Assembly: GCA_001972305.1 (NCBI GenBank)
Contig: BDDD01000919.1
Span: 401,715-465,714, forward strand
From: Cephalotus follicularis
Lineage: Eukaryota; Streptophyta; Magnoliopsida; Oxalidales; Cephalotaceae
Direction: 5' to 3'
DNA: 64,000 bases
A program made the translations under genes and the position numbers. The notes under the pieces were generated by a model. The model was not told the DNA's origin and searched no databases. It saw only the letters and a program-made list of their open reading frames with translations. Every line of letters starts with the position of its first letter. Positions within the stretch are counted from its first letter, which is position 1. Positions 3,721 through 53,100 of the stretch are shown here, piece by piece.

Positions 3721-3765
3721 GTACTAATCTTTTAAGGGAATTGTATAGTTAGGAACCCTATGGGT

Positions 3766-3945
3766 CACCACAATTGAGATCACCCACAACTGAGATCACC
3801 GTATAGGTCACCACCGATAGAAATGACTGAAAAGGTCACCACCAATGGAGATGATCGAAAAGGTCACCACTGATTGAGATGATCGTAAATGTCACCTAAT
3901 GAGATGACCGCAAAAGTCACCAACCGAGATGACCGTGAGGGCTAT
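3766..3945 (+). repeat. Minisatellite in LTR, GGTCACCACC / GAGATGACCG units
   Basis: About seven imperfect units of 20-30 bases alternate GTCACC and GAGATGACCG-like words. The unit is distinct from the array immediately upstream. Confidence 0.75.
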
Positions 3946-3956
3946 TGATTGTGTAT

Positions 3957-4001
3957 GGATGTGTGTGTGTGTATGTGTATGTGTGTGTGTGTGTGTGTGT
4001 A
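3957..4001 (+). repeat. (TG)n microsatellite
   Basis: A nearly pure TG run with a few TA interruptions, inside the LTR. Confidence 0.9.
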
Positions 4002-4852
4002 TATATAAATATTGATTGTAAATGGATATATGTATATATGGTTATTGATTGTAATTGTAACCACGAGATCGTTGTCCTAAGAGATTAGCGTTATGGAAGG
4101 TCTGACCAGGTGAATATTCACCTTCTCTACTCTACTTATGAAGGTCACCCTAGTCTGCCAATAGGGTATTGTTTCTGTGTAGGACACCAAGAGTGCCTAG
4201 TCTGCTCTACCTCGGCAAGGAAGGCTAAGGAGAGTTTATATGTATCCTAGAATGACATTGATCATTATGGAAGATTCAGTGATCTGCCACCTCGGCAGAG
4301 GAGGCCGAGGAGGGCTCATATGTGCCCGAGATGATTTTGGTATGATATGGATGCTGAATGATGATGGAATCATATTGTTATGGTTATGGAATATTGTGGA
4401 TAATGACTCTGCGTTTATATGAATGGTTACGTTGTGCATCTCGCATGTCATGCATTCTCATGTTCTGCATATAGTAGTTCCTACACAATCATGGGTTACT
4501 GACCCATTCTCTGAATGGGTCAGGTTCAGGTGATGCAGCGTAATGACCAGATGGGAGAAATTGCAGAGCAGAGCTTCGTCAGCTGAGCAGTTCTGTACAG
4601 TCCACCTTGTATAATGGAAAGGGATGTTGTAATTATTATATTTGACTTGCTGGCTTGTGGCAAAGCTTGAATAAGACATTATTGTATACATTTGGGTTTA
4701 TCCACGCAAGTTATATAATTGTTAATTCCGCGTGCATGATTCTGATTTAAAGTTTTAAATTTATTACATATTTTGGATGATGGAAATGGATTGTATGGAT
4801 GGCATGACATGTGTCGGACCATGGGGTCCTTATCATGGTTCGGGGCATGACA

Positions 4853-5695
4853 ACCGTGGCCTAGGGTTTGGACCATGTCAACCATAGGTAAATCCACGAT
4901 AACTATAAATCTACGAACACGCTGAGACTATTGGAAGACCTCCCCGGAAAACCCTTTTCCAGTCTACCAGTGCTTGATCAGGACTATAAGTCTACAACGG
5001 TCACAGATGTTATAGAGCCTGTCACCCTCAATACGGATGTGAAGATCCCCTGTTGCGCACTCGCCCATACATCTTAATGCAGCTCCCACAAGGCCCAAAG
5101 ACAAACCTTTTGCCAACTCATGGCTAGAGCTGTGGAAGGTAGAAATCAAAGCCAGACGGTTACTACACAACGCATGCCAGCCGCTCATGTCTAAGGAAAC
5201 TATACAGGTCACGTATGGCCTACCAGTCACAATTGACTATACACTACCGAGACTATAGGAATCCTATTGACAAAGGTATTGACTCTCCAAATAGGTTTCC
5301 TATGGTGGGTTGGTTCAGTGTCATGCGTTCTAGCACGCACCCCGCATTAGCTTTAGGGTAAACTCAAATGGCAATGAGATAATCCATCCTCCACTGAACC
5401 CGAGAGCAAGCATAATATGGAAAGTTTGTCCAGTTCATCAATTGCCCTAAGAAAGTGATCCTATGACTTAGAACATTTTGTTATAAGGGAGTAAGGATCT
5501 CATTCTCATAACCTCCCAGGCACAAGATCCAACCCCTCGAACGACAGGGCACTATATGTGTATTCAGTTAATATAGTGATTAACTGATCCATGTCTATGG
5601 TTTGGGATATCTACATATAGCAGATGCCAATACTACTGTAATATACACAATAAAACATGAATGGAACTAAGAATGTATAGACTTAAGAGTGTGTC
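4853..5695. other. Unassigned repeat-like DNA, no gene seen
   Basis: The stretch between the first LTR and the MULE fragment has no open frame with a recognisable domain. The only reading frame of note (4964-5230, minus strand) resembles nothing I know and has no convincing start. The sequence looks like untranslated or LTR-type DNA of another element, but I cannot name it. Confidence 0.5.
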
Positions 5696-5699
5696 ATAT

Positions 5700-5932
5700 G
5701 TAAAATACATACGATGTAGCTACCTCGTGGCTTACAGGGACACCCTTATCTAACTGGCCAAACACTATGAGGACAAAATTAGGATTCAACCCACTTGGAA
5801 GCTAAGTGCATTTAAAAGCACCATACTTAGTGACTTTAACACTAAAGTGTCTCGGAGCACATGCTATATGATAAGAAAAAGAGCAAATGATGAGATTGAA
5901 GAGTCATATGAAGAGCAGTTCTTGAGATTGAG
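5700..5932 (+). pseudogene. MULE transposase, upstream fragment left of the solo LTR
   Basis: From about 5770 the frame reads AKHYEDKIRIQPTWKL, then a segment ending SYEEQFLRL at the insertion point, which is typical of the region before the catalytic core of MuDR/MULE transposases. The reading continues in frame at 14518 (RDYGKEIIRSNPG) once the solo LTR and one copy of its TTGAG duplication are subtracted. A short block rich in stops at 5700-5765 may hold the preceding residues. This fragment and the one at 14513-16485 are therefore one transposase gene. Confidence 0.8.
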
Positions 5933-6323
5933 TGTAAGCCCTGGATTTTAAATGTACAGAATTGTGTGTATCTTGCTTGTATTTATAGGGTATTGTACGG
6001 TATTGTTTGTACGGATGGCATGGATTGTATATGATATATATTATTTTCTACTTTATGATTGTTTATTGGTAGTAGGGGTTCAATAGAACCTAAAGCGTAG
6101 CTTTGAGATTTTTGTCCAAAAGAAGTCTATATATAGATCGGTTACCTCTTTCCATTCTCATTTTTCTTTTCTCATCTCCTATTCTAGAGAGAGTGAATTA
6201 GAGAGAGGAAGTGGGTGGAATCGAACAAGGAAGCAGTCGTTGGGATCATGGTGAAGTGTGGAACTTGAAGGAAGGATCGAATCAAGGTTCCAACAGCAAA
6301 TCCTCCCAGATCTGCATGTCGAC

Positions 6324-7325
6324 TGTTGACGTTTTAGTCTCAATCATAGTTTTGATGATAACATATTTGCTTTTAACAAGTTTATTTTATGTGCAAGATA
6401 CTTGATATATCAAAAAGACATTTTACATAAAAGACATCGACGCCATTGAAGGAAGACATCGATGCATTTAATGAACCAGGAGTTACAGGTGGTTATTCAT
6501 GAAAGACATCGATCCTTTTATCCAAAGGCATCGACGTCCTTAGCACCTAAAGTTACAGGTCATATTTCGCCAAAGACATCAATCCCTTTCAGAAAAGACA
6601 TCGACGTCTTTATCCCAGAAAGTTACAGGCAATTTTCATTCAAAGACATCGATCTATTTCAGAGAAGACATCGAATGTTTAACTCAAAGACATCGATCCC
6701 TTTACAAAGACATCGATGCGTTTATGCCAAAAAGTTACAGGTCATTTTTGAAGAAAATCATCGATCCATTTCTATGAAGACATCGAAGTCTAATCAAAAG
6801 ACATTGATCCCTTTACAAAGACATCGATGTGTTGCTCATAACTTTTGTGTTTCCAGAAAGGACATCGACGCCTATGAAAGACATTGATGTGTTGCTCATA
6901 TCTTCCAAGACTGGCGACAACTCCAGAAAAGTCATCAACGCCATTTATAGACATCGACGTCTTTCAACAACAATTACGCCCTGGATGCTCGCAACGGCTA
7001 GTTAATTGGTAAAGGCATCGACGCTTATCAAAGACATCGATGTCTTTGCTCCAACGGCTACATAACAGTGTTTACAACAAATCATCAGTTTTCAATTCAA
7101 AATCTCCATGATTTAAGCAACGGATACATGGATTGTTTGGCTATATAAATGAGGGTCCAAGGCTTCAGAAAAAATCAAGAAACAAAGAACACAAGCAATC
7201 AAGCAAAGTTTCAAAGTGCTCTTAGCTTCAAAGTTTTATTTTTTCTGAAGTTTCTTTCTGTAATTCTCTCTTGTTCTTTACTGTAAGCCAAACCTACTGA
7301 GAGGTTACATGGAACAAATCAGGTA
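6324..7325 (+). repeat. 5' LTR of the nested copia element, right end deleted
   Basis: The first 195 bases match the 3' LTR at 12010 almost exactly. The body holds the GACATCGA motif array (6424-7050), a TATA box (TATATAAA near 7142) and a leader rich in AAG/CAA. The LTR terminus seen at 12214-12251 is missing here, and gag sequence follows almost at once, so a deletion removed the LTR end and the PBS. Confidence 0.85.
6424..7050 (+). repeat. Array of about twenty GACATCGA(T/C) motifs in the LTR
   Basis: Words of the form (A)AGACATCGATCC, GACATCGACG(C/T)C and GACATCGATG recur about every 15-45 bases, with variable spacers such as AGTTACAGG. CATCGATG is an eight-base palindrome. The array ends about 90 bases before a TATA box. 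A long open frame (6462-6887) across it is only the translation of the repeats. Confidence 0.85.
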
Positions 7326-7340
7326 AAAGACGCTAAAATA

Positions 7341-8597
7341 AATATGCTAGTTAGAGAATATGAAATGTTCTCAATGAAAGAAAATGAAAATATTTCTAGT
7401 ATATTTGTTCGCTTTACAAATATTATAAACTCACTGCAATCTTTAAATAAGTGCTAGACTAACAGTGAGATGGTAAGAAAGATAATCAGGTGTCTACCAA
7501 AGAGTTGGATGCCTAAAGTCACTGCCATAGAGGAAACAAAGGACCTTAACACACTGCCACTTGAAGAACTTCTTGGATCACTCATGACACACAAAATGAC
7601 GATAAAAAATCATGATGATGAAGAACAAGACAAGAAGAAAAAGAAAGTCATAGCTTTCAAATTCTCTATAGTAGATTCAAGCGAAGAAGAGAGTGATGAT
7701 GAGATGGAATTAATAACAAGGAGATTCAAAAAATTCTTAGCAAAGAAGAAGTTTTGTAGCAAAAACCTCAAGAAGTCAACTCCTTCAAAATCTGAGATGA
7801 AGAAAGAAGAGATCATATGCTTCGAATGCAACAAATCCGGACACTACAAAAGTGAATGTCCGAGATTAAAGAAAGCCAAGGAAACAATCAAAAAGAAGAG
7901 AGCAATGCTAACTACATGGTCGGGCAGTGATGAATCCAGCTCTGAAGAAGAGGAGAACCAAGAAGTAGCATAATTGGCGTTGATGGCAATCGATGATCTC
8001 TATGAAGACGAAGATGAAAACGAGGTAAGTGAACTTCTTGAACTACTTGAACAGTTTAGTCTAGAAAATGCATCACTCAAAAAGACAATAAAAGCTGTCA
8101 ATAAAGAGAATGTTAGTCTAAAACATGAGATAGAATGCTTATCAAACAAGTCTTTAGATGATAAGATTATATCTCTTGAAAAAGAAAACGAAACACTTAA
8201 ATTAGAAGTTGATGCTCTTAAGAAAACTTTTTCAAAGTTTTCAAACAGTAGTGAAAAACTTGACAAACTTTTAGGTCTTCAAAGATGTGTTTTCAATAAA
8301 GTTGGCCCAGGTTATGATGAGATGAACAACGTTAAGCATTTTCAAAAATATATTGAAAAGAAAGATATTAAAAAGACCCCATCTAGTATAACTTGTAACT
8401 ATTGCAATAAAAATGGTCACACTACACACAACTGTTATCACAGCAAAAATGACATATGTAAGAGGAATAAATTTAAACAAAACATGTTCTATAGAAATCA
8501 AATGTTTAAGATAAGAACTATATGGGTTCCAAAAGGAACGTTTATCACTAACCCCCCTGGACCCAAAGCAACTTGGGTACCAAAGTCTTCAACTTAA
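7341..8597 (+). pseudogene. gag: Copia gag remnant (two CCHC knuckles, coiled coil)
   Basis: The frame starts within the gag core (VREYEMFSMKENENIS), is interrupted by stops at about 7454 and 7971, and continues in the same frame to 8597. It shows LPLEELLGSLMTH, a first zinc knuckle CFECNKSGHYKSEC near 7820, an acidic serine-rich tail, a Leu/Lys/Glu-rich probable coiled coil (about 8000-8260), and a second knuckle CNYCNKNGHTTHNC near 8395. The layout matches the gag of element B (45138-46812), so the two elements are related. The N-terminus is deleted. Confidence 0.88.
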
Positions 8598-11500
8598 ACT
8601 CATTTGTTTTGTAGATGTGCCTAAAGACATCATCAAAAAGGAATCGTTGGTACCTTGATAGCGGATGTTCCAAACACATGACGGGTAACAAAAGTCTTTT
8701 TTGTAACCTGGGAACCAAAAGACGGAGGAAACGTAACCTTTGGAGATAATGCAAAAGGACAAATCATTGGAACCGGATCCGTAGGTAACGAAAATATTAC
8801 TATACTAATGTATTGCATGTTAAAGGACTCAAACACAATCTCTTGAGCATAAGTCAATTATGTGACAAGAATTGTAGAGTTATTTTTGAAAATCTACATG
8901 TAGAGTCGTTGACAAAAACAATAATACCACTAAGTTTATAGGAAAAATAGAAGGCAATGTTTATGTAATAGACATAGATGATCTTCAAAATCAAAACGTT
9001 AAATGCCTAGTTTCATTAAACGAAGATAGTTGGATGTGGCATAGAAGGCTTGGACATATTAGTATGAGAACAATTTCAAAGATTTTAAAACATGACTTAG
9101 TTAAAGGTCTTCCCAAATTAAATTTTCAAAAAGATAAGGTTTGTGACGCTTGTCAACAAGGAAAACAAACTAGAACAAGTTTTAAGTCTATTAACATTGT
9201 CTCAACTACTAGGCCACTCGAACTACTTCATATGGATCTTTTTGGACCTATAAACATAAGAAGCTTAGGTGGTAAGTCTTATCCTTATGTTATTGTTGAT
9301 GACTACACTAGGTACACATGGGTTTTCTTTTTAGCACATAAAAGTGAAGTTTTTACATTCTTTACGAATTTTTGTAAACAAGTTCAAAAAGAAAAAGGAC
9401 TTCCTATTTTGAAAGTAAGAAGCGATCATGGTAAAGAGTTCGAAAATCACATTTTTGATAACTTTTGTATAGAAAATGGTTTTAAACATGAATTTTCAAC
9501 TCCTAGAACTCCTCAACAAAATGGTGTTGTTGAGAGGAGAAATAGAACCTTAGAAGAAATGACTAGAACCATGCTTTGCGAAAATAACCTTCCAAAATAT
9601 TTTTGGGCCGAAGCCACAAACACTGCATGTTACATTTTAAATAGAATATCAATAAGGTCAATTCTCAAAAAGACTTCATACGAGTTATGGAGAGAGAGAA
9701 AGCCTAACATCAGTCACTTCTGTGCCTTCGGATGTAAGTGTTTCATTCACAACAACGGAAAGAATCAACTTGGTAAGTTCGACTCAAAAGCGGATGAAGG
9801 TATATTTCTTGGATACTCTCTTACTAGTAGAGCTTATAGATGTTTTAATAAATGTACTTTGCTAGTCGAAGAGTCTATGCATATTGTCTTTGATGAGTCT
9901 ATTGATGTAAGTACATGTATGCAAGATGACATAGAATTTCATGAACCTTCTGAGAACGTTGATGTAGAATCTAAGAATAGCTACCAACAAGATCTTATAG
10001 AAAAGACCTCTAAAGTAGTTAAAGATCACCCACATGAATCCATAATTGGTAATATTCAACATGGTGTTATGACCAGGTCTAATGCTAATACTTGTAACTA
10101 TGTTACTTTTCTTTCTCACTTTGAGCCTAAGAACTTTGTAGAAGCTGAAAAAGATGAAAACTGTATAATAGCTATGCAAGAGGAGTTAAACCAGTTTGAA
10201 CGTAATAAGGTTTGGTTTCTAGTGCCTCGACCTAAGGATCATTCCGTGATAGGGACTAAATGGATCTTTAGAAATAAGTTGGATAATCAAAGAGTAATAG
10301 TTAGAAATAAAGCTAGACTAGTAGCTCAAGGTTATTCACAAGAAGAAGGTATAGATTATGATGAAACATATGCACCTGTTGCTAGATTAGAATCTATACA
10401 TTTGTTACTTGCATTTGCTTGTTTTAAAGATTTTAAATTATATCAAATGGATGTAAAAAGTGCCTTTTTGAATGGTCTTATAAAAGAAGAAGTATATGTG
10501 GAACAACCTCAACAAGGCTTTGTATGGTCTCAAACAAGCTCCTCGAGCTTGGTATGAGAGGTTAACTAATTTTTTGGTTGAAAATGATTTTAAACGTGAA
10601 AATGTTGATATAACACTTTTTACAAAATCAAAAGAAAATGATTTACAAGTAGTACAAATCTATGTTGATGATATTATTATCGGATCAACTAACGAATCTT
10701 TGTGCAAAGAGTTTTCTAACATTATGAAGTCAGAATTTGAAATGAGCATGATGGGAGAACTCAACTTCTTCCTTGGACTTCAAGTTAAGCAAACCAAAGA
10801 TGGAATCTTCATCAACCAAGCTAAGTATGTAAAGGAAATACTCAAAAAGTTTGGAATGGATAACTCAAAAACAAGTAAGACTCCTATAAGCACTTCTACA
10901 AACCTTGACAAGGACGAACAAGGTAAAACTGTTGATCAAAAGCTTTATAGAAGCATGATAGGTTCATTATTATATTTAACTGCTAGTAGACCCAATATTT
11001 TGTTTAGTGTTTGTTTGTGTGCACGTTTTCAATCAAACCCTAAAGAATCACACTTGTTTGCGGTTAAACGTATTCTGAAATACCTTGCATATACACCTAC
11101 TCTAGGTTTATGGTATTCTCGAGACTATAGTTTTGACCTACACTTATACTCGGATGCTGACTTTGGTGGTTATAAGGTTGATCGCAAGAGTACTAGTGGC
11201 TCATGCCAATACCTAGGGAGTATGCTTGTATCGTGGTTTAGTAAAAAGCAAAATTCTGTTGCTCTTTCTACCACCGAGGCAGAATATATTGCTATAGGTA
11301 GTTGCTCTGCACAGATTTTATGGCAAAAACAACAGTTGGTAGATTATGGTGTTTTTGTGAAACATGTACCTATAAAATGTGATAACACTAGTAGCATTTG
11401 TCTTGCTAAAAACCCTGTTCATCATTCGAAGACAAAACACATTGACATTAGGTATAACTTTTTAAGAGAACATGTTGAAAATGGAGATATTGAATTAGAA

Positions 11501-11605
11501 TATGTCTCTACGGATAAACAAATAGCTGACATTTTTACCAAACCTTTAGATGAAAATACCTTTTCTAAGTTTAGAAGAGAATTAGGTTTATGTGAGTTTG
11601 AATGA
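8598..11605 (+). pseudogene. pol: Copia pol remnant: protease, integrase, RT, RNase H
   Basis: Protease motif DSGCSKHMTG lies near 8657. Integrase starts near 9034 with [15 protein letters not shown] (HHCC), [16 protein letters not shown] and [11 protein letters not shown] for the catalytic DDE. RT begins near 10180 with the active site YVDDIIIGS near 10660. RNase H shows YSDADFGG and STTEAEYIA. The region before 9034 is frame-broken. Near 10510 a deletion with frameshift joins VEQP to [14 protein letters not shown], removing roughly fifteen residues. Both long parts are otherwise open, so the copy decayed relatively late. Confidence 0.93.
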
Positions 11606-11816
11606 ATGTTTATTTGTTTTCAATTGAATATGTGTTTGATTGTTTGTTCGTTTGAATTTGATTGTTTGTATTGTTTTTTTTTTTTTTTTGAAAACTAATG
11701 TTTATGTATGACATTCTGAGTTTGTTATACTTTGAATATTTTTTTGTTATTATGATGTTTTTGAATCTTGATGGTATATTGTTCTTATGATATCATGTGT
11801 CACATCCCTCTATTCT

Positions 11817-12009
11817 TAAGGGGGAGCTTACTTTTGCCTTTGTCTTTTTTATGCTATCCAAAAAGGGGGAGATAGCTTTAAAAATGAAAATTTTGCAGAT
11901 TTAGTAAGTTTTCTTATTTGCAGTTTTTCTTATTTGTTACTTTCAACACATATCATTCTTTTTTAATCTTTTATGCGCAAATTTTTCTCATCATCAAAAA
12001 TGGGGAGAT
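11817..12009 (+). promoter_or_regulatory. Three polypurine tracts before the 3' LTR
   Basis: Purine runs lie at 11817-11826 (TTAAGGGGGAG), 11860-11872 (AAAAAGGGGGAGA) and 11995-12009 (AAAAATGGGGAGAT). Only the last abuts the LTR. Element B shows the same multiplicity. Confidence 0.75.
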
Positions 12010-12251
12010 TGTTGACGTTTTAGTCTCAATTCTAGTTTTGATGATAACATATTTTCTTTTAACAAGTTTATTTTATGTGCAAGATACTTGATATATCAAA
12101 AAGACATTTTACGTAAAAGACATCGACGCCATTGAAGGAAGACATCGATGCCTTTAATGAACCAGGAGTTACAGGTGGTTATTCATGAAAGACATCGATC
12201 CTTTTATCCAAAGACCCCCTTGTATTTTGCAAGAGCAATCATTTTATTTCA
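12010..12251 (+). repeat. 3' LTR of the nested copia element, internally deleted
   Basis: It matches the 5' LTR from its first base to about 12212 and then jumps to an LTR terminus ending TTATTTCA, followed directly by the TCGAC duplication. The motif array and promoter region are therefore missing from this copy. Confidence 0.85.
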
Positions 12252-43392: not shown

Positions 43393-43918
43393 ATGTCTGA
43401 CAATGCAAGCAACGGGACCACCGGGGCCACTACTAGAGTTGTGACTACTGGGGTTCTTAACTCAAATCTCCATATTAGCCCTTTCAAATTTGATGGGGCT
43501 AATTATTTAACATGGTCGAAAGCCTCTATGTTATCTATAAGGACCCATAAGCTTGCATGATACCTGACTGAGGCAACTATGCATCGTACTAATGGCGATA
43601 AAGATGTTGAAGAGAAATGGTCGTTTGAGGATTCTATGGTTATGTATTGGCTTGTTCAATCCATCGAATCATCACTTAGCAAACAATACACAGCCTTGAA
43701 CACTGCTAAAGATGTCTGGGATACTATTGTTCAACAATACTCTAGAGAGAATAATTATGTTTGAAGCTATGATATCCACAATGAGTGTTTCGGATTTAGT
43801 CAGGGGGGCCTATCTCTAGTTGAATATTACTCTAAATTAACTTATATATGACAACAACTTGATTCTCATTGTAGCTTACAACTACAAATCCTACAGACGA
43901 TGTGGCATTTCAGAGGTA
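43393..43918 (+). pseudogene. gag: Copia A gag, part before element B
   Basis: ATG at 43393 starts MSDNASNGTTG, then ISPFKFDGANYLTWSKA, the usual copia gag start. Stops occur at 43558 and 43762 (with a probable frameshift). The reading is cut at 43918 by element B and resumes at 50178 with MDKLRVWDFLAGLNPEYDHV. Confidence 0.85.
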
Positions 43919-45082
43919 TATTGGCTTTTGCCACCCCTTTAAATGTGTCAAATAGTGATATTTCGATGATTAACAAAATTGAAATACTTGTATGCATATT
44001 TTGATATCTTACAAAATCATCTACTCACTTGATTTTATGTCCAAAGTATTGCAAAGTTTAAAGTTGCAGATTCAGGCAAAAACAGTCGACTGCCCATGAT
44101 GAACAGCCGACTGTTTAGGTTGAGTAGCCGACTGCCTGGGTTGAACAGCTGACTGGAATTTCAAAGAATCCCATAATCTGGAATTGTACTCCATCTAGCC
44201 GACTGTATTAGGGGTCTAGCCGACTGGCAAGACAAAACAGCCGACTGCCAAGGATCTCCAGCCGACTGTCAAGAAGTGCACATTTAGACCAGTAGCTTTT
44301 GAGAAATCCAATTTTCCAATAACAACCGACTAAAGCAGGGAAACAGCCGATTGTTTTGGCAAACAGTCGACTGTCAAGTTCATCCAGCCGACTGCCTTCA
44401 CCAACGGCTATAATCATAAATGCACAACAACTTCTCCAGCCGACTGCCAAGAAAATCCAGCCGTCTGGATTTGGTCTGAAGTTTAAAAATAGATCCGTTG
44501 AAGCATCTCTATATAAGAAAAAGTGAGGTATCATTAAAAAAAAGAGATAACAAGACAATACACATTTCTTCCAAGCAACTCAAGAGCAATCCTACACCTT
44601 TCAAATCAATACCGAAGCTTTGTTCAAGTATTTTAAAGCCTATCTTAGATAGCTATTGTTTGTAAGCCTTACTTAGCAATATCTAGCCTTTGAGAGGTTA
44701 TTGTAAACAACACAAAACATCTTTACAATCTTTTATTATATAAGGGGAGTGAACCCTTAGAGAGATAATCAAGGGGAGTGAACCCTTAGTAGGATTATCA
44801 TGGGAAGTGAACCCAAATTTTGTAAGGTGTTTTTCTTTGATTTTCACCCGCAATCCAAAATCAAAGGGTGCTAGTGGATTCTAGTGAAAACTCAAGGAGC
44901 TACGTTGGGAAAGTGGACGTAGGCAAGAGATTGGCCGAACCACTATAAAATTGTGTTTGCACTCTCTCTAACTCTATATCTCTTTACGTATTTAATTGTT
45001 CTTATATTCTTGTATGCTTGTTTCCGTAAGTATATTTCCGCAAATTATATATCTTTAGAAGGTTGCCTTATAAGGTTTTTCA
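43919..45082 (+). repeat. 5' LTR of element B
   Basis: About 1.16 kb. Layout: start TATTGGCTTTTG (TG changed to TA), motif array 44082-44470, TATA box TATATAAG at 44510, a transcribed part with three AAGGGGAGTGAACCCTTAG-like repeats (44740-44815), and end TTTTTCA. The 3' LTR is colinear with only small differences. Confidence 0.9.
44082..44470 (+). promoter_or_regulatory. CAGCCGACTG array in the 5' LTR (RCCGAC motifs)
   Basis: I count nine RCCGAC cores here (eight GCCGAC, one ACCGAC), plus CAGTCGACTG palindromes and decayed copies, with irregular spacers of about 10-60 bases. RCCGAC is the core of the DRE/CRT element bound by plant DREB/CBF factors. The array ends about 45 bases before the TATA box at 44510. 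That it confers cold or drought response is inference. Confidence 0.75.
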
Positions 45083-45137
45083 GTTGGTATCAGAGAGGTT
45101 ATTTCATAATTCTTAATTGTTAGAAATATAAAGATCC

Positions 45138-46812
45138 ATGACAACTTCTATGAATCAAAATGTAGGAGTAGAATGTTCCTCCATCTCTAGACCCCCATTC
45201 TTTGATGGAAACAATTATAGTTTTTGAAAAACTAGAATGAGAATATTTTTACAATCCTTAGACTATCAATTATGGCACATTATTATAAATGGTCTTAGGA
45301 TGCCCACAAGAACGATAGAAGGAGTAGTCTCTCTAAAACCCGAAAATGAATTTAACGATAATGATTTTAGAATGCTTCAATTAAATTAAAAATCTAAACA
45401 AGTTTTGTTTTGTGCCGTGGGTCCAAATGAGTTTAATCGTATTTCTTCTTGCGACACGACTAAAGAAATGTGGGACTTGTTAGAAGTTACGTATGAAGGT
45501 ACTAACCAAGTAAAGGAATCGAAGTATGCTTGTACATGAATACGAATTATTTTTGATGCATGACAATGAAAGTATTAGTGATATGTTTACTCGTTTTACT
45601 ATGATTATTAATTCTCTTAAAAATCTTGGAAAATCTTATTCTAACCAAGAACTTGTAAGGAAAATCTTAAGGTGCTTGCCAAAAAATTGGACTCCAAAGG
45701 TAACGGCAATTGAGGAAGCTAAGGATCTCTTAACTCTTCCACTTGAACAACTCCTAGGTTCCTTGATGACACATGAGACAACAATGAAGAATCATGAGCT
45801 TGTGGAAGTCAAAAAGAAGAAGACGATTGCCTTAAGAGCCTCGAGGGAAGAAAGTGAAAGTGATGAAGAAGGAGATATGACGCTTATAACTTCTCAATTC
45901 AAGAAGTTTCTAAAGAGTCAAAAAGGCAAAAAGGCCTTAAAAAAGAAATTCCCTCAAGAAGAAGAATCAAGAAAAAGGGAAGAGCCAACTTGTTATGAAT
46001 GCAAAAAGTCGGGTCACTTCAAAAACGAATGTCCAAATCTTAAAAAGAAAGCGCAATTCAAGAAGAAGGATGAATACTCAAAAAGGAAGAAAGCAATGGT
46101 AGCCACATGGGATGATAGCGATCCCTCAAGCTCCGAAGAAGGAAGTGATGAAGAGGTTGCAAACATTGATTTCATGGAAATTGAGGATGAGGATGAAAAT
46201 GAGGTAAATTTTACTTTTGATGAGTTGCAAAATGCATATGAGAACTTGTTTAACGAATATGAAAATGTTTGCTTGAGAAACAAGTCTCTAAAGAAAAATG
46301 CTATTTCAATGTCTAAAGAAATTGAAAATCTAAAGAGTGAAATTAGCAAATATATAAGCGAAATTGAATCTATAAAAAATGAGAAGAGTTACTATATGAA
46401 TGGGATTGACGTTTTAAATATTTCTTCAAAATTATCAATTGATTTTAAGGAAGAAAATGAGAAGCTAAAACTTGAAATTGATGCTTTGAAGAAAACTTTT
46501 ACTAAGTTTTCTAATAGTAGTGACAAGTTAGATAATCTTCTAAGACTTCAAAGGTGTGTATTTGACAAAGTCGGTCTCGACTATGAAGAAATGAATAATG
46601 TCAAACACTTTAATAATTTCATTGTTAAGAAAGTAGAGCCCAAAATTTCTTGCAACTATTGTGGTAGACTAGGACATATTTTCACTTCATGCTTCCATAG
46701 AAAGAATATTGGTAAAACTAAGAAAGTTTGGGTTCCCAAAGGAACCATTTTGACTAACCCTCAGACTCAAATTTATTTGGGTACCAAAAGTTTAAATTTC
46801 CTTACTTTGTAG
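45138..46812 (+). pseudogene. gag: Element B gag (two CCHC knuckles, coiled coil), lightly broken
   Basis: Starts MTTSMNQNVGVECSS at 45138 and FFDGNNY near 45205. Stops occur at 45226 and 45387, with a frameshift at about 45525. From 45526 the frame is open for 428 codons: LRCLPKNWTPKVTAIEEAKD, LPLEQLLGSLMTHE, knuckle CYECKKSGHFKNEC (about 45990), an acidic SSSEEGSDEE stretch, a long Lys/Glu/Asn-rich probable coiled coil (46200-46520), and a second knuckle CNYCGRLGHIFTSC (about 46652). Gag forms the particle and binds RNA. Confidence 0.9.
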
Positions 46813-47051
46813 GTGTGCTCGAAGGAAATGGTACTATGAAAACATCAAGCTAAATATGATCACAGTGAGCACATGAGTAGTAAGTGTTTTGGTAGTAAAT
46901 ATCATGATATTTGTTTGATTATGTGTTTTTGAATGTAATTATGTGATTAGATGTATATAAAATGTTTTTTGAACTCATGTTTTGCATCCAACATTAAGTT
47001 TTAACTCAATCATCAAATATCTAAATCACTATTAGTTAATAATAGCTGATT
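46813..47051 (+). other. Deletion junction where pol is missing
   Basis: Directly after gag the sequence still resembles the gag-pol junction of the element at 8600 (TTTGTAG.TGTGC), then becomes AT-rich without any protease, integrase or RT motif. Confidence 0.6.
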
Positions 47052-47104
47052 ATGGATTTTCAGATCAAAGAGAAACTCAAAATTTGCCTATTTCGAGTTT
47101 TGCA

Positions 47105-47284
47105 GATTCCAGCCGACTGGTGTCCTGATCCAGTCGACTGTCACATATCCAGCCGACTGGCTCAAAACAACAGTCGACTGTTGACACACGAATCAGTTTT
47201 TTATAAATGCGATTTTCCCCCTCTCTCTAAAACTCTCTTCTCCAAACCTAAACCTTCTCCGAAAATTCGCTCATACTAATTTTC
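47105..47284 (+). promoter_or_regulatory. Internal promoter candidate for the extra ORF of element B
   Basis: Four copies of the LTR motif (CAGCCGACTGG twice, CAGTCGACTG twice, 47110-47180) precede TATAAA at 47202-47207. A CT-rich leader and the ATG at 47285 follow. Motif array, then TATA, then CT-rich leader repeats the design of the LTR promoter. No experimental evidence is available. Confidence 0.55.
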
Positions 47285-48415
47285 ATGGCATCCAAGAAGA
47301 GGAAAAGCATGGGAACCAAGCAGAGAAGCTCAAATCCAGTAATCGATTTTGATGACGACCTTTTTCTCTCCAAGGAAAATGAAGAGAGGTATAATTCCGT
47401 CCTTAATTCAGTAAAGCTCCATAACGAAAAATGGTTAGATAGAGAGATTTTGATTAACAATATAGTTTCTATTAGGTCTTGGCTTGAACATTTGGGTTGG
47501 TTTGACTATTTGTGTTCATCTCACCTAATTTACCCTAGGTTAGTAAAACTTTTTTTTGTTAATCTTGAAAAAACCACTAGTTGTGTAGCAAAATCGTTTG
47601 TTCTTGGCAATGCTGTTGAAATTACCCTTGATTTTATTGCCGAAACTTTAGGTATTCCATGCACCGGTATCACTCACTTTAATGATATTGAAAAATCCGA
47701 TGCTTTGGAAATTTGCTTAGAACGGTCCGATTTCAATCCAATTATGACCGTTACTAGCAGCCACTTGCCCATTGCTACTTGCATACTCTTATTACTTGTC
47801 ACTAATACTTTGTTGCCTAGAGAGGGCTCGCATACACTACCATCTGAGCGAGACCTAAAATTAGTGGCTTGTATAAAAAATGGAACTCTTGTTAACCTTT
47901 CGTATCTCATAGTTAACAAAAATTTATCTAGATTACATCACCTTCCCTATCTTATGCTTATTAGTAGGGTTCTAGCTTCCCTAAACATTGGTATTGAGGA
48001 TGAACACAATGTCAAACCCAAAACTAAGCAATTAATAAACAAAGCCGGGCTTAAGAGTTGCAATATCAAGTTTGAAGATGGTTTATGGGTGAAGCAACAA
48101 GCGGTAGGGAGAGCACCCATGAAGGAACCGGATGTTGGTGTTGGTAGAGATAACGCGAAAGAAGAAGAAGAAGAAGATGATGGGGATCGATTTGAAATGA
48201 GGCCAAATGTTGAAGGAAGTAGTATTGGAGGTAGTAGACCTACCATGGAGTCACTTCAAGCAAGGATGGATTTAGTCCAAGCCAACATTGAATACATTAG
48301 AGGAAGAGTGGATCAAATCTATGATCGCCTCGATTCGCAAGATGCACAAATGGCCCAAGCGATCCAAATGCTCCAAAATGCCTACCCTCAACACCCACCT
48401 CTCGGATCATCTTGA
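47285..48415 (+). CDS. Extra ORF of element B, putative plant transposon protein
   Basis: An uninterrupted 376-codon frame with start context TTTTCATGG. The N-terminus is basic (MASKKRKSMGTKQR), a possible nuclear signal. The central part, RSWLEHLGWFDYL, IYPRLVKLFFVNLE, VEITLDFIAETLGIP and LPYLMLISRVL, resembles the putative plant transposon protein domain found in many uncharacterised plant proteins near retroelements. An acidic EEEEEDDGD stretch (about 295-305) precedes a C-terminal helical segment (MESLQARMDLVQANIEYIRG), a likely coiled coil. It has no protease, polymerase or integrase motif and no signal peptide. Its role is unknown; it might be structural or assist gag. It stays open although the neighbouring gag has decayed. 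Confidence 0.75.
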   Translation: MASKKRKSMGTKQRSSNPVIDFDDDLFLSKENEERYNSVLNSVKLHNEKWLDREILINNIVSIRSWLEHLGWFDYLCSSHLIYPRLVKLFFVNLEKTTSCVAKSFVLGNAVEITLDFIAETLGIPCTGITHFNDIEKSDALEICLERSDFNPIMTVTSSHLPIATCILLLLVTNTLLPREGSHTLPSERDLKLVACIKNGTLVNLSYLIVNKNLSRLHHLPYLMLISRVLASLNIGIEDEHNVKPKTKQLINKAGLKSCNIKFEDGLWVKQQAVGRAPMKEPDVGVGRDNAKEEEEEDDGDRFEMRPNVEGSSIGGSRPTMESLQARMDLVQANIEYIRGRVDQIYDRLDSQDAQMAQAIQMLQNAYPQHPPLGSS

Positions 48416-48686
48416 GCGACATTTCATGCATATCATGTTTTTCTTGTAGTGTGTGATGAAAATGAACTTGTAGTGAACTTGTAGTTTTATTGTGAGATGA
48501 TCTTGAAGTTGTGTAATGAATTTGCACTTTGATTATGTAATGAAATTTTTAGTGTGTTTACGAAATGGATGTGTTTTATAATGTGTTCTCCTAAATTTTC
48601 CATTCTACATTGTTGTCAATGATTAGTATTTCATCTCCCTAAATAATTAATCTCTTCATTGGAATTGAATTTGTGTACGCATTCGT

Positions 48687-49034
48687 TAAGGGGGAGCTTT
48701 GTTGCTCAAGCACTTTGTTAATGCTTAAACATATGCATTGATTAAGGGGGAGCTTCGTTAATTTTTTTTTGTTGTTTGACAAAAAGGGGGAGAGTTTATA
48801 TAGTGTAGTCAAATATATGATGTTGTCTTTTATTTAATTTGACTATGCATACAAAAAGGGGTAGAATTGTTTAAGTATGCATTATCCTATATGAAATGTG
48901 TTGCTCAGTCACTTTGAGAAATATTCTAGACTTGACTTACTGGAGTTTGGTTAATATTAGAGGACTTAAGTGATAAATTTGTCAAAATTATGCAAAATTA
49001 GTCTTGTTTTGTCAATCATCAAAAAGGGGGAGAT
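48687..49034 (+). promoter_or_regulatory. Five polypurine tracts before the 3' LTR of element B
   Basis: Purine tracts lie at 48687-48697, 48743-48753, 48781-48794, 48853-48862 and 49020-49034, each of the type AAAAAGGGGGAGA or TTAAGGGGGAGC. The last abuts the LTR and is the functional candidate. Confidence 0.75.
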
Positions 49035-50172
49035 TGTTGGCTTTTGCCACCCCTTTAAATGTGTTAAAGAGTGATATTTCGATGATTAATAAAAATGAAA
49101 TACTTGTATGCATATTTTGATATCTTACAAAATCATCTACTCACTTGATTTTATGTCCAAAGTATTGCAAAGTTTAAAGTTACAGATTCAGGCAAAAACA
49201 ACCGACTGCCCATGATGAACAACCGACTGTTTAGGTTGAGTCTCGCCTGGGTTGAAAAGCCGACTGGAATTTCAAAGAATCCCAGAATCTGGAATTGCAC
49301 TCCATCCAACCGATTGTATCAGGGGTCCAGCCGACTGCCAAGACAAAACAGCCGACTGCCAAGGATCTCCAGCCGACTGTCAAGAAGTGCACATTTAGAT
49401 CAGTAGCTTTTGGGAAATCCAATTTTCCCACAACAGCCGACTAAAGCAGGGAAACAGCCGACTGCCAAGTTCATTGAGTCGACTGCCTTCACCAATGGCT
49501 ATAATCATAAATGCACAACAACTTCTCCAGCCGACTGCTAAGAAAATCCAGCCAACTGGATTTGGTTTAAAAATAGATCCGTTGAAGCATCTCTATATAA
49601 GAAAAAGTGAGGTATCATTAAGAAAAAAAAAAGGGATAACAAGACAATACACATTTCTTCCAAGCAACTCAAGAGCAATCCTACACCTTTCAAATCAATA
49701 CCGAATCTTGGTTCAAGTATTTTAAAGCCTATCTTAGAGAGCTATTGTTTGTAAGCCTTACTTAGCAATATCCAACCTTTGAGAGGTTATTGTAAACAAC
49801 ACAAAACATCTTTACAATCTTTTATTGTATAAGGGGAGTGAACCCTTAGAGAGATAATCAAGGGGAGTGAACCTTAGTAGGATTATCACGGGAAGTGAAC
49901 CCAAATCTTGTAAGGTGTTTTTCTTTGATTTGCACCCGTAATCCAAAATCAAAGGGTGCTAGTGGATTCTAGTGGAAACTCAAGGAGCTACCTTAGGAAA
50001 GTGGGCGTAGGCAAGAGATTGGCCGAACCACTATAAAATTGTGTTTTCACTCTCTCTAACTCTATATCTCTTTACGTATTTAATTGTTATTAAATTATTG
50101 TATGCTTGTTTCCGTAAGTTTATTTTTCCGCAAATCATATATCTTTAGAATGTTGCCTTATAAGGTTTTTCA
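49035..50172 (+). repeat. 3' LTR of element B
   Basis: About 1.14 kb, TGTTGGCTTTTG to AAGGTTTTTCA, colinear with the 5' copy. Its motif array (49198-49560) also holds nine RCCGAC cores by my count, but in partly different positions, followed by the same TATATAAG near 49595. Confidence 0.9.
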
Positions 50173-53100
50173 AGGTACATGGATAAGCTTCGGGTATGGG
50201 ACTTCCTTGCAGGACTCAATCCAGAATATGATCATGTTCGGGTTCTGGCTCTTTGTAAGGATCCATTTCCTACATTGCAACAGGCTTATAACCTTATCCA
50301 TCATGAAGAGAGTCGCCGCTCTATTACGTTTCCTTTAGTTACTCTTGATCGATATGTTCTTGCTATTTCTCGGTCATCTGTTACTCCCAATGATCCTAAG
50401 AGTAACCTTACTAAAAAAGTTTGTGATTATGATAGGAAGTCGAGACATAGTAAGGAATTTTGTTGGAAGTTGTATGGGCGTCCTAAAGGACATGGAGGTA
50501 AATCGACTTCTGCTCGCTCACAGGTTCATATGTCTGAGGTATCAGATTGTTCTCCTATTTTTACTCTTGGCAATAGTGTAGCTTTCAATCCTAGTCAGAT
50601 TCTAGCACTTCAGCGAATGTTCTCTCAGCAACAACTTGGCACTTCCTCGACTAGTTCCTCCCCTTTTGGTCCCTCTAATGGCTCCTCCAACTTTGCAAAG
50701 TCAGGTATAACTCCTAGTGCTTTTAGTGCTTCCCTGTCTTCTAGTCTTTCTTGGCTATTGGACTCTGGGGCAAACGAACACATGACTAGCTCGCCAAAGT
50801 TATTTAATTCCTATATCTTTTAATCTGGTAAGGATAAAATTAGAGTTGCCAATGGTTCTTTATCATCCATTTCAGGAAAAGGGTCTGTCTCTTTTACGCC
50901 TACTATATCATTGAACTCTGTACTTCATGTTCCTAATATTTGTGCCAATCTTATTTCAATCTTCCTTTTAACCTTGGAACTAAATTGTTGAATCATTTTT
51001 TTATCTTATCACCGTGTTTTTTAGGAGCTGGGAATGGGGAAATTGATTGGCTTTGGTAGATTACGTGATGAACTTTACTATCTAGATCCTCCTCTTGCTT
51101 TTGCTCATGTTACAAGGATGGATAATAGTCTCTTACACCAATGACACCAAAGATTGGGTCATCTCTATTTTAGAGTTTTATCCATTTTATTTTCGTAACT
51201 AACAAAGGGTTGTAATGAGAAGTTCGTTTGTGATGTCTATGAACTTGCGAAACATACGTGCTCTCACTATCCTTCGAGTTAGTACTATTCCTTTTCAAGT
51301 TATACATTCTGACTTATGGGGTCCTTCTAGAACTGTATCTCGTGATGGATTTAAGTATTTTGTTTCTTTTATTGATAATTGCACTCGTCTTACTTGGGTC
51401 TACCTTCTCCATACTAAAAATAAGGCATTTGCTTGTTTCAAATCTTACCATGCTATGATCCATACTCAGTTTAATGCTAAAGTTCAAATCCTTCGTAGTG
51501 ATAATGGTACTGAATACATAGATGGAAAATTTTGTACTTATCTAGATGAGAATGGTATAATTCACCAAACCTCTTGTGTCCGTACCCCTGAACAAAATGG
51601 TATCCCATAAAGGAAAAATAGACACCTTTTAAAGGTCACTAGCTGAATTATATTCTCTATGAGTGTTCCTAAATCTTATTCGGCAGATGCAGATGCAATG
51701 CAAACTGCTTCTTATTTGATTAATAGGATTCCATCTAGTGTACTTGATTTCAAAATACCTATATCACTTTTACCAGATGCTTCTCTTGTCTCATATCTCC
51801 TACCAAAGGTCTTTGGTTGTGTTTGTTTTATTCATAATTCTTCTCCTTCTTGTGACAAACTTAATCCTAGAGCTCTACGTTGTGTCTTCCTTGGCTATTT
51901 CGCATCCCAGAAGGGACACAAGTGTTACCATCCCTCTTCTCGCAAACTCTTTGTTACCATGGATGTCACCTTTTTGAAAAAGGGTAATTCTTTTAGTCAT
52001 CTCTTCATGAGGAGAATCATATTGAGCATGCAGTTTTTTTCACCTATTACAAGCCATATTATTGAGGAAGAGATTCCCTCTAACTCATCTTTGATTAATG
52101 ATACTACTTATGTTGAGGGGGGAATGAGAATTATAGCAAGGGGGAGAGTGAAAAAAGTGTTGCAGAAGAGGATGTAAGAGCAACCCAGACACAAGTAGGA
52201 AAGGACTTAATCACTTATTCCTGAAGAAAGGGAAAGAATCAGATAGAAAAGTGCATTCATGTGCACCCAGAGCAATTGACAACCTTGGACTAAGATCCAT
52301 CTCCATCTCCATCTCCTTTGGTGTCAGGTAATGTTAATCCTTCTATGAATGACTTAAATAAACTTATTGCTCGTAGGAAAGGAGTTAGAGCTTGTACTCA
52401 ACATTCTATTTCTAACTTTGTGTCTTACAAAAGGTTGTATTCTACATATCGTGCTTTTCTTTCTTCCTGATCCTCTGTGTCTATTCCGCATGGTTGGAAA
52501 AAAACCATTACAGATCCAAAATTGAAGAATTTCAAGGTAGAGGAAATGTCAGCTTTGAAAAAGAATGATACAAGGGAGTTAGTTTCTTTACCAGCTGTAA
52601 AGAAGACAGTGGGATGCAAATGAGTATTTATTATAAAACAAAAAGCATATGGAACTATGGAGAGATTCAAAGTTCGTTTGGTTGCAAAGGGTTTCACTCA
52701 AACATACGGAATTGATTACCAAGAAACATTTGCTCTTGTAGCAAAAAATGAATTCTGTAATGATGCTTCTCTCTTGTGCTGTAAACCTTTGATGGAATCT
52801 ACAACAGTTAGATGTAAAAAACTGCATTTCTTCATAGAGAGCTTGAGGAAGAGGCATATATGGATATTCCTCTTGGTTTTCCATCTCAGCTAACTGAAGG
52901 AAAGGTATGCAAACTGAAGAAAGCCCTGTATGGATTGAAGCAGATTCCAAGAGCCTGGTTTGGTAGATTTCGCAAGGCTATGCTAGAGTTCGGATATAAA
53001 CAAAGTCAAGCCGATCACACTATGTTAAACGAGTCAGAGAAAGAATTACAATCCTTATTGTTAACGTTGATGACATAGTAGTGACAAGCAATGATGAGGC

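Follow-up and report, generated by a model that had tools for sequence, protein, structure and literature searches.

The 64,000-nucleotide stretch of Cephalotus follicularis DNA analyzed here (assembly GCA_001972305.1, contig BDDD01000919.1, positions 401,715 to 465,714 of the forward strand; hereafter the window) contains, at positions 43919 to 50172, a copia-type retrotransposon, element B, in which two long terminal repeats (LTRs) enclose a gag gene and an intact 376-codon open reading frame (ORF) without matches to integrase or reverse transcriptase (RT). The locus raises the question of whether this arrangement is an accident of a single decaying copy or belongs to a lineage that spreads without its own pol gene, and, in the latter case, why the ORF has been kept. 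The best explanation, to which we assign a probability of roughly 0.8, is that element B is a member of an old non-autonomous lineage with many copies, which stems from a sirevirus-like Ty1/copia element and would have lost pol a single time, borrow its enzymes and carry an ORF whose product acts in cis.

The genome assembly (1.58 Gb in 9746 contigs, the window included) was searched with the ORF protein, for which 109 of 12,090 first-look candidates were scored and 111 rows matched (window included), and with the gag protein, for which 98 of 23,422 first-look candidates were scored. Forty-one distinct ORF-bearing copies were obtained, comprising the 38 of the codon-alignment set (window included) and L064 to L066; row L009, which is the window itself, was removed ahead of counting. 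The gag gene is joined to the spacer of the ORF in 40 of these 41 copies, the exception being L023, which has no gag, and no pol match is found beside the ORF in any of the 41. Among 30 ORF loci read with flanks of up to 1.5 kb (window included), 29 show the order gag-spacer-ORF, with gag only partly left in L013 and L019, and pol matches are absent from all 30. A further set of five longer loci, which includes two of the 30, was probed with matches shorter than 40 discarded; they show gag, spacer and ORF with LTR sequence on both sides and pol between the LTRs in none of the five, and the pol matches present in L042 and L043 both lie outside the LTRs of those copies. L039 is a complete copy with its own CCTCG duplication, and L056, which was reached through its LTRs, likewise reads gag-spacer-ORF without pol and has an insertion in gag. 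An 8.1-kb LTR pair on contig C3989 was considered as a pol-bearing copy and rejected, as it too lacks pol and owes its length to an insertion of about 2.9 kb in the 5' region of gag.

The same arrangement is found from the side of gag. From the 98 gag rows, nine loci were hand-picked on contigs that are all outside the ORF list; seven of them read gag-spacer-ORF with no pol match (three of the seven being read over about 0.9 kb only). Of the remaining two, L061 is gag-only and L062 is rearranged, with a foreign integrase match (36% identity) beyond an LTR piece. By hand count, 16 contigs are common to the ORF and gag match lists, and on 14 of these the distance from the gag end to the ORF start is 475-546 bp; on C264 and C713 the two matches are more than 60 kb apart and therefore belong to different copies. 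Element B is a member of a pol-less multi-copy family. The first-pass annotation, made from the letters of the window, had suspected a defined pol-less family with gag and ORF colinear, and the count of gag-ORF copies without pol bears this out. That element B arose as an isolated accident, when a decaying copia copy was internally deleted or rearranged, would agree with its broken gag, but is refuted by the copy survey and is left with a very small probability, given the 40 copies that share the junction of gag with spacer and ORF and the complete copy L039.

Sequence divergence among the copies indicates which parts of the element have been maintained. The ratio of nonsynonymous to synonymous divergence (dN/dS) was calculated on the codon columns of the window, with 37 of the 38 ORF copies placed in four tree-aided groups and net values obtained by subtracting within-group differences. 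L024 and L032, the same copies as L040 and L039, were excluded from codon alignments, trees and dN/dS; L035, L061 and L062 belong to no group, and L031 and L060 were assigned by hand to the window clade (from the gag tree) and to subfamily 2 (from the ORF tree), respectively. Insertions and frameshifts were left out of codon alignments, trees and stop counts, and most copies were picked as best ORF matches. Between groups, the net dN/dS of the ORF is 0.08-0.12 at a net dS of up to 0.69, and 62-72% of its net changes fall at third positions. For gag the corresponding values are 0.11-0.28, with 0.11, 0.15 and 0.20 for the three pairs that exclude subfamily 3; those that include it rest on the final 21-22% of gag, where the codon-position subtraction fails. 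The two wrong frames give net values of 0.7-3.8. Within groups dN/dS is mostly below 1 (ORF 0.16-0.43, gag 0.11-0.76). Both gag and the ORF are under purifying selection between subfamilies.

In-frame stops are equally rare in the compared copies (38 in 14,230 ORF codons and 32 in 11,967 gag codons). Stop-free rows, counted by hand, number 40 of 111 for the ORF and 43 of 98 for gag, and 20 of these 43 gag rows have open frames of 556-580 codons. The equal stop rates and similar constraint indicate that, across the family, decay is no faster in gag than in the ORF. The first-pass statement that gag had decayed while the ORF had not applies to the window copy, the gag of which is broken in its 5' part, and is not supported for the family, in which the dN/dS comparison finds purifying selection on both genes.

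The anatomy of the window copy is as follows.

43914 to 43918, no strand assigned: target-site duplication AGGTA, left copy, read from the sequence
43919 to 45082, + strand: 5' LTR with eight (A/G)CCGACTG repeat boxes, starting with TA rather than TG
44881 to 44987, + strand: LTR block alignable with the LTR of the pol-bearing sirevirus-like locus L063, the initial 70 bp or so 90% identical
45085 to 45096, + strand: primer binding site TGGTATCAGAG
45138 to 46812, + strand: gag, 5' part broken in the window copy; a 428-codon frame at 45526-46812 is open
46813 to 46907, + strand: junction at the missing pol, similar in 12 of 12 printed copies and in three subfamilies
46908 to 47100, + strand: start of the linker; 46908-46946 is alignable with the post-pol linker of the six pol-bearing loci tested
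47105 to 47185, + strand: extra repeat boxes of the LTR type (CAGCCGACTG, CAGTCGACTG) 5' of the ORF
47285 to 48415, + strand: 376-codon accessory ORF, PF20167 (Transposase_32)
48689 to 49034, + strand: four AGGGGGAG polypurine tracts, at 48689, 48745, 48785 and 49025
49035 to 50172, + strand: 3' LTR with eight (A/G)CCGACTG boxes, starting with TG
50173 to 50177, no strand assigned: target-site duplication AGGTA, right copy, read from the sequence

The LTRs, the AGGTA duplication, the primer binding site, gag, the purine tracts and the 376-codon ORF are all as first annotated. The primer binding site is presumably complementary to the initiator-Met tRNA. The absence of integrase and RT is likewise confirmed, as no match is obtained between the LTRs with the integrase and RT/RNase H of element A, a copia elsewhere in the window, as probes (protease was not probed). 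The frame at 45526-46812 matches Retrotran_gag_2 (1.7e-15) and a zinc knuckle (1.3e-5) in Pfam; Pfam detects one CCHC knuckle, and a second is seen by eye. Upstream, two in-frame stops follow the ATG at 45138, and the frame changes before 45526. The two LTRs are 91.9% identical (BLAST), with a Kimura two-parameter (K2P) distance of 0.051 over 1131 aligned bases, and if the rice substitution rate of 1.3e-8 per site per year is applied to this distance, element B would have inserted about 2 million years ago. It is nested in another copia, both flanks of which read by eye as a single gag. The pol-less copy at L042 (451-9992), of the second subfamily, sits in the RT of another copia, the RT matches breaking off and resuming at residue 176, and its 5' LTR is split by a further 2.1-kb insertion.

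The stretch across the missing pol is similar in nine of nine and in three of three printed copies, with the window clade and subfamilies 2 and 3 represented among the nine, and its similarity in three subfamilies fits a single ancestral loss of pol. The spacer at 46908-46946 aligns with the linker that follows pol in all six loci tested of 10 loci read with the RT of element A as query (the first of these being element A itself); the scores are reached by 0-7 of 500 Markov shuffles, and the six loci are related to each other. Judged from these alignments, pol was most likely lost between the gag stop and about position 46907.

The position and identity of the ORF are consistent with such a loss. 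The ORF at 47285-48415 matches PF20167 with 59.2 bits (E 6.2e-16; Pfam gathering cut-off 45). A homologue of the ORF (22-27% identity) is located within 1.5 kb past pol in five of the 10 RT loci, all three post-pol homologues that were scanned exceed the PF20167 cut-off (50-76 bits), and pieces of the ORF are seen by eye past pol in L047 and L049. By domain and position, the ORF is the PF20167 accessory ORF found past pol in part of the pol-bearing copias of this genome. The ORF therefore stands at the place that it has in these relatives, between pol and the 3' LTR, and its identity as a post-pol PF20167 ORF, together with the sirevirus marks described below, indicates that pol was deleted and the 3' ORF stayed. 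The ORF had been placed by the first-pass annotation in the position of pol and taken for a novel protein; it lies instead in the 3' linker and is of a known accessory type. That the ORF is a captured host gene which replaced pol, as might be thought from its position directly past gag, is scarcely credible in view of the post-pol homologues and of the genome search with PF20167, in which 13,073 first-look candidates were found and 150 of the 150 scored were over the cut-off, numbers that fit a repeat family.

The protein is basic at its N-terminus, which is followed by the PF20167 domain and an acidic stretch, and it ends in a coiled-coil-like helix. A single-sequence AlphaFold model is poor (mean predicted local distance difference test score 39.8), and only the C-terminal helix at residues 321-366 is fairly confident; a sequence search of solved structures with the ORF gave no match, even with E values of up to 10 allowed. 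Since the ORF occupies the position of the sirevirus 'envelope-like' gene and is preceded by repeat boxes, it could be a true envelope or movement protein, in which case the family would be less an ordinary retrotransposon than a virus-like agent that has become defective. The window copy does contain one borderline hydrophobic stretch (Kyte-Doolittle value 1.81), but by hydropathy no 19-residue window above 1.6 is present in the other four of the five ORF proteins examined (one of them partial), and the basic N-terminus and C-terminal helix suggest an intracellular, perhaps nuclear, protein. We regard the envelope reading as improbable, and a nuclear or particle-associated role appears more likely from these features.

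The relationship to sireviruses is indicated by several cis motifs. According to the sections consulted of PMC2829016, sireviruses carry AGGGGGAG exactly 10 bp 5' of the 3' LTR, with further copies mostly past the envelope-like gene. Their attachment site is AT/TG, the terminal tract is bordered by an inverted repeat, and the LTR contains palindromic boxes, which in some members recur where the envelope-like gene begins; the box core is CGG-CCG in all but Tnd-1, and a C-rich integrase signal occurs in 17 sireviruses, not in all. Element B resembles the sireviruses with an envelope-like gene, as far as these are described in the consulted parts of PMC2829016 and PMC3599292, in its four AGGGGGAG tracts past the ORF, the terminal one at 49025 lying 10 bp before the 3' LTR (49035), in the AT/TG attachment site formed by AGGGGGAG-AT-TG at 49025-49036, in the inverted repeat that borders the last tract (score 27; the highest score among 300 plain shuffles was 25), and in its palindromic boxes in the LTR and before the 3' ORF. 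The sequence (A/G)CCGACTG occurs 20 times on the + strand of the window, 16 times in the LTRs (8 + 8), twice before the ORF and twice elsewhere. Element B differs from the sireviruses in that it lacks pol and in that its box core is TCGA (CAGTCGACTG), the usual CGG-CCG core being absent. No C-rich run near the LTR end was noticed by eye. As element B has no RT, its description as sirevirus-like is drawn from gag, the ORF and these cis motifs.

A pol-bearing relative on contig C21 (L053, L063) is laid out in the same way and carries boxes of another sequence. The terminal tract and attachment site of this relative are 96% identical to those of element B over the last 28 bp before the 3' LTR, and the two elements have the LTR block listed above in common. 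Element A (window 6321-12213) is itself a sirevirus-type gag-pol copia with two AGGGGGAG tracts past pol (11819, 11864); no PF20167 homologue was found within 1.5 kb past its pol, and the matching terminal repeat found is 207 bp only.

Pol-less copies could also be produced repeatedly by hidden low-copy pol-bearing masters, for example through reverse transcription of RNA from which pol has been spliced out, with selection acting in the masters. An origin by splicing would make identical junctions each time, and splicing of an env-like gene has been reported for Bagy2 (PMC7264820, in the part consulted); additionally, only the best candidates of each genome search were scored, so that masters of low copy number could be missed. 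However, no pol match stands beside the ORF in any of the 41 copies, the only pol match among the nine gag-first loci is the divergent one in the rearranged L062, and the gag and ORF trees group most copies alike. We consider this explanation unlikely, although it carries more weight than the others discussed here.

Several observations weigh against the preferred explanation of a single, ancient loss of pol followed by selection in the pol-less lineage. Masters may escape the searches, as stated. The spacer-linker match is short and AT-rich, and the L047 score was exceeded by one of 100 or more plain shuffles. A protease remnant past the gag stop, plausible by eye, was rejected after local alignment (z -0.1 versus shuffles). 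The constraint on gag is the less secure for the pairs that involve subfamily 3, for the reason given with those values. The gag and ORF trees place L018, L031 and L060 differently, which makes some exchange or recombination between subfamilies possible. The gag-only derivative L061 (1-4501), in which two tandem units sharing an LTR contain gag, the 3' spacer and LTR with neither an ORF nor a pol match, indicates that at least some copies can do without the ORF. Finally, no close pol-bearing partner was found through the RT of element A; the relatives are about 48-57% identical in gag and about 25% in the ORF, too distant in both genes to single out a helper.

Under the explanation that we prefer, the ancestor would have had the order LTR-gag-pol-accessory ORF-LTR, and pol would have been lost once, before the subfamilies split, so that selection on gag and the ORF would have acted in the pol-less lineage. 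RNA transcribed from the 5' LTR would yield Gag, which would package the RNA of the element itself, and protease, RT, RNase H and integrase would be supplied in trans by pol-bearing sireviruses; we infer mobilization of this kind from the motifs shared with such elements, and the helpers would have the polypurine/attachment sequence and the LTR block in common with element B. The boxes 5' of the ORF may drive or mark a separate ORF transcript. The PF20167 protein would act in cis on the particle, the complementary DNA (cDNA), or its nuclear or silencing fate, which would explain why the ORF is kept while pol can be borrowed. As gag and the ORF are conserved although pol could be borrowed, the targets of both proteins are probably the RNA or cDNA of the element itself. 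What stands of the first-pass interpretation is the multi-copy pol-less family, with borrowing of pol as its natural reading, whereas the novel protein, its location in place of pol and the decay of gag do not apply to the family. A stronger proposal, which we advance tentatively and at somewhat less than even odds, is that the family is a stable satellite lineage of sireviruses which has discarded all enzymes and in which selection has held Gag and the PF20167 accessory protein, and these two proteins exactly. If this is true, the action of the accessory protein is in cis, on its own particle or cDNA, does not depend on pol, and matters to spread as much as Gag does.

Gag-only copias and copias without RT and integrase are already published. 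In barley, the family RLC_Giselle is devoid of RT and integrase, its gag is potentially intact, and RLC_Inga is the partner on which it is proposed to depend (PMC5738225), Inga being among the elements with boxes at the envelope-like gene in the consulted part of PMC2829016. Element B resembles RLC_Giselle as a copia with these losses and a proposed autonomous copia partner; the section of PMC5738225 consulted is silent on a 3' accessory ORF and gives no dN/dS. Gag-only TR-GAG elements, one of which was caught transposing in Arabidopsis ddm1 according to the part consulted of PMC8704663, are like element B in having LTRs and gag without pol domains, and unlike it in having a single GAG ORF, whereas the second ORF of element B is under purifying selection; L061 is of the TR-GAG-like type. 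In sunflower, PF20167 occurs in a 3' accessory ORF of Athila with a predicted nuclear signal (PMC11728184, in the part consulted). This ORF has the same Pfam domain, sense orientation and position at the 3' end of the element, but Athila is a gypsy and element B a copia element. In searches of open-licence PMC papers, no description was found of a copia family without pol in which gag and a PF20167 ORF are both kept under selection. What the 'envelope-like' accessory genes do for plant retrotransposons is unsettled, and a lineage that can borrow every enzyme and yet conserves the accessory gene separates the role of this gene from pol and narrows it to what an element must supply itself. The family would stand midway from full sireviruses to elements with gag alone, and the gag-only derivative may represent the next stage of reduction.

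PF20167 is also found in another setting. L054 (reverse complement of 3721-7879) and L055 (4918-9000) are copies of a 4.2-kb repeat, 92% identical to each other, in which no sirevirus tract and no primer site were found. The repeat contains a 413-codon PF20167 ORF that scores 94 bits (the best in the genome being 102) and, about 2 kb downstream of it, an antisense hAT-like transposase ORF recognized by eye, so that PF20167 may be common to retrotransposons and a DNA transposon family.

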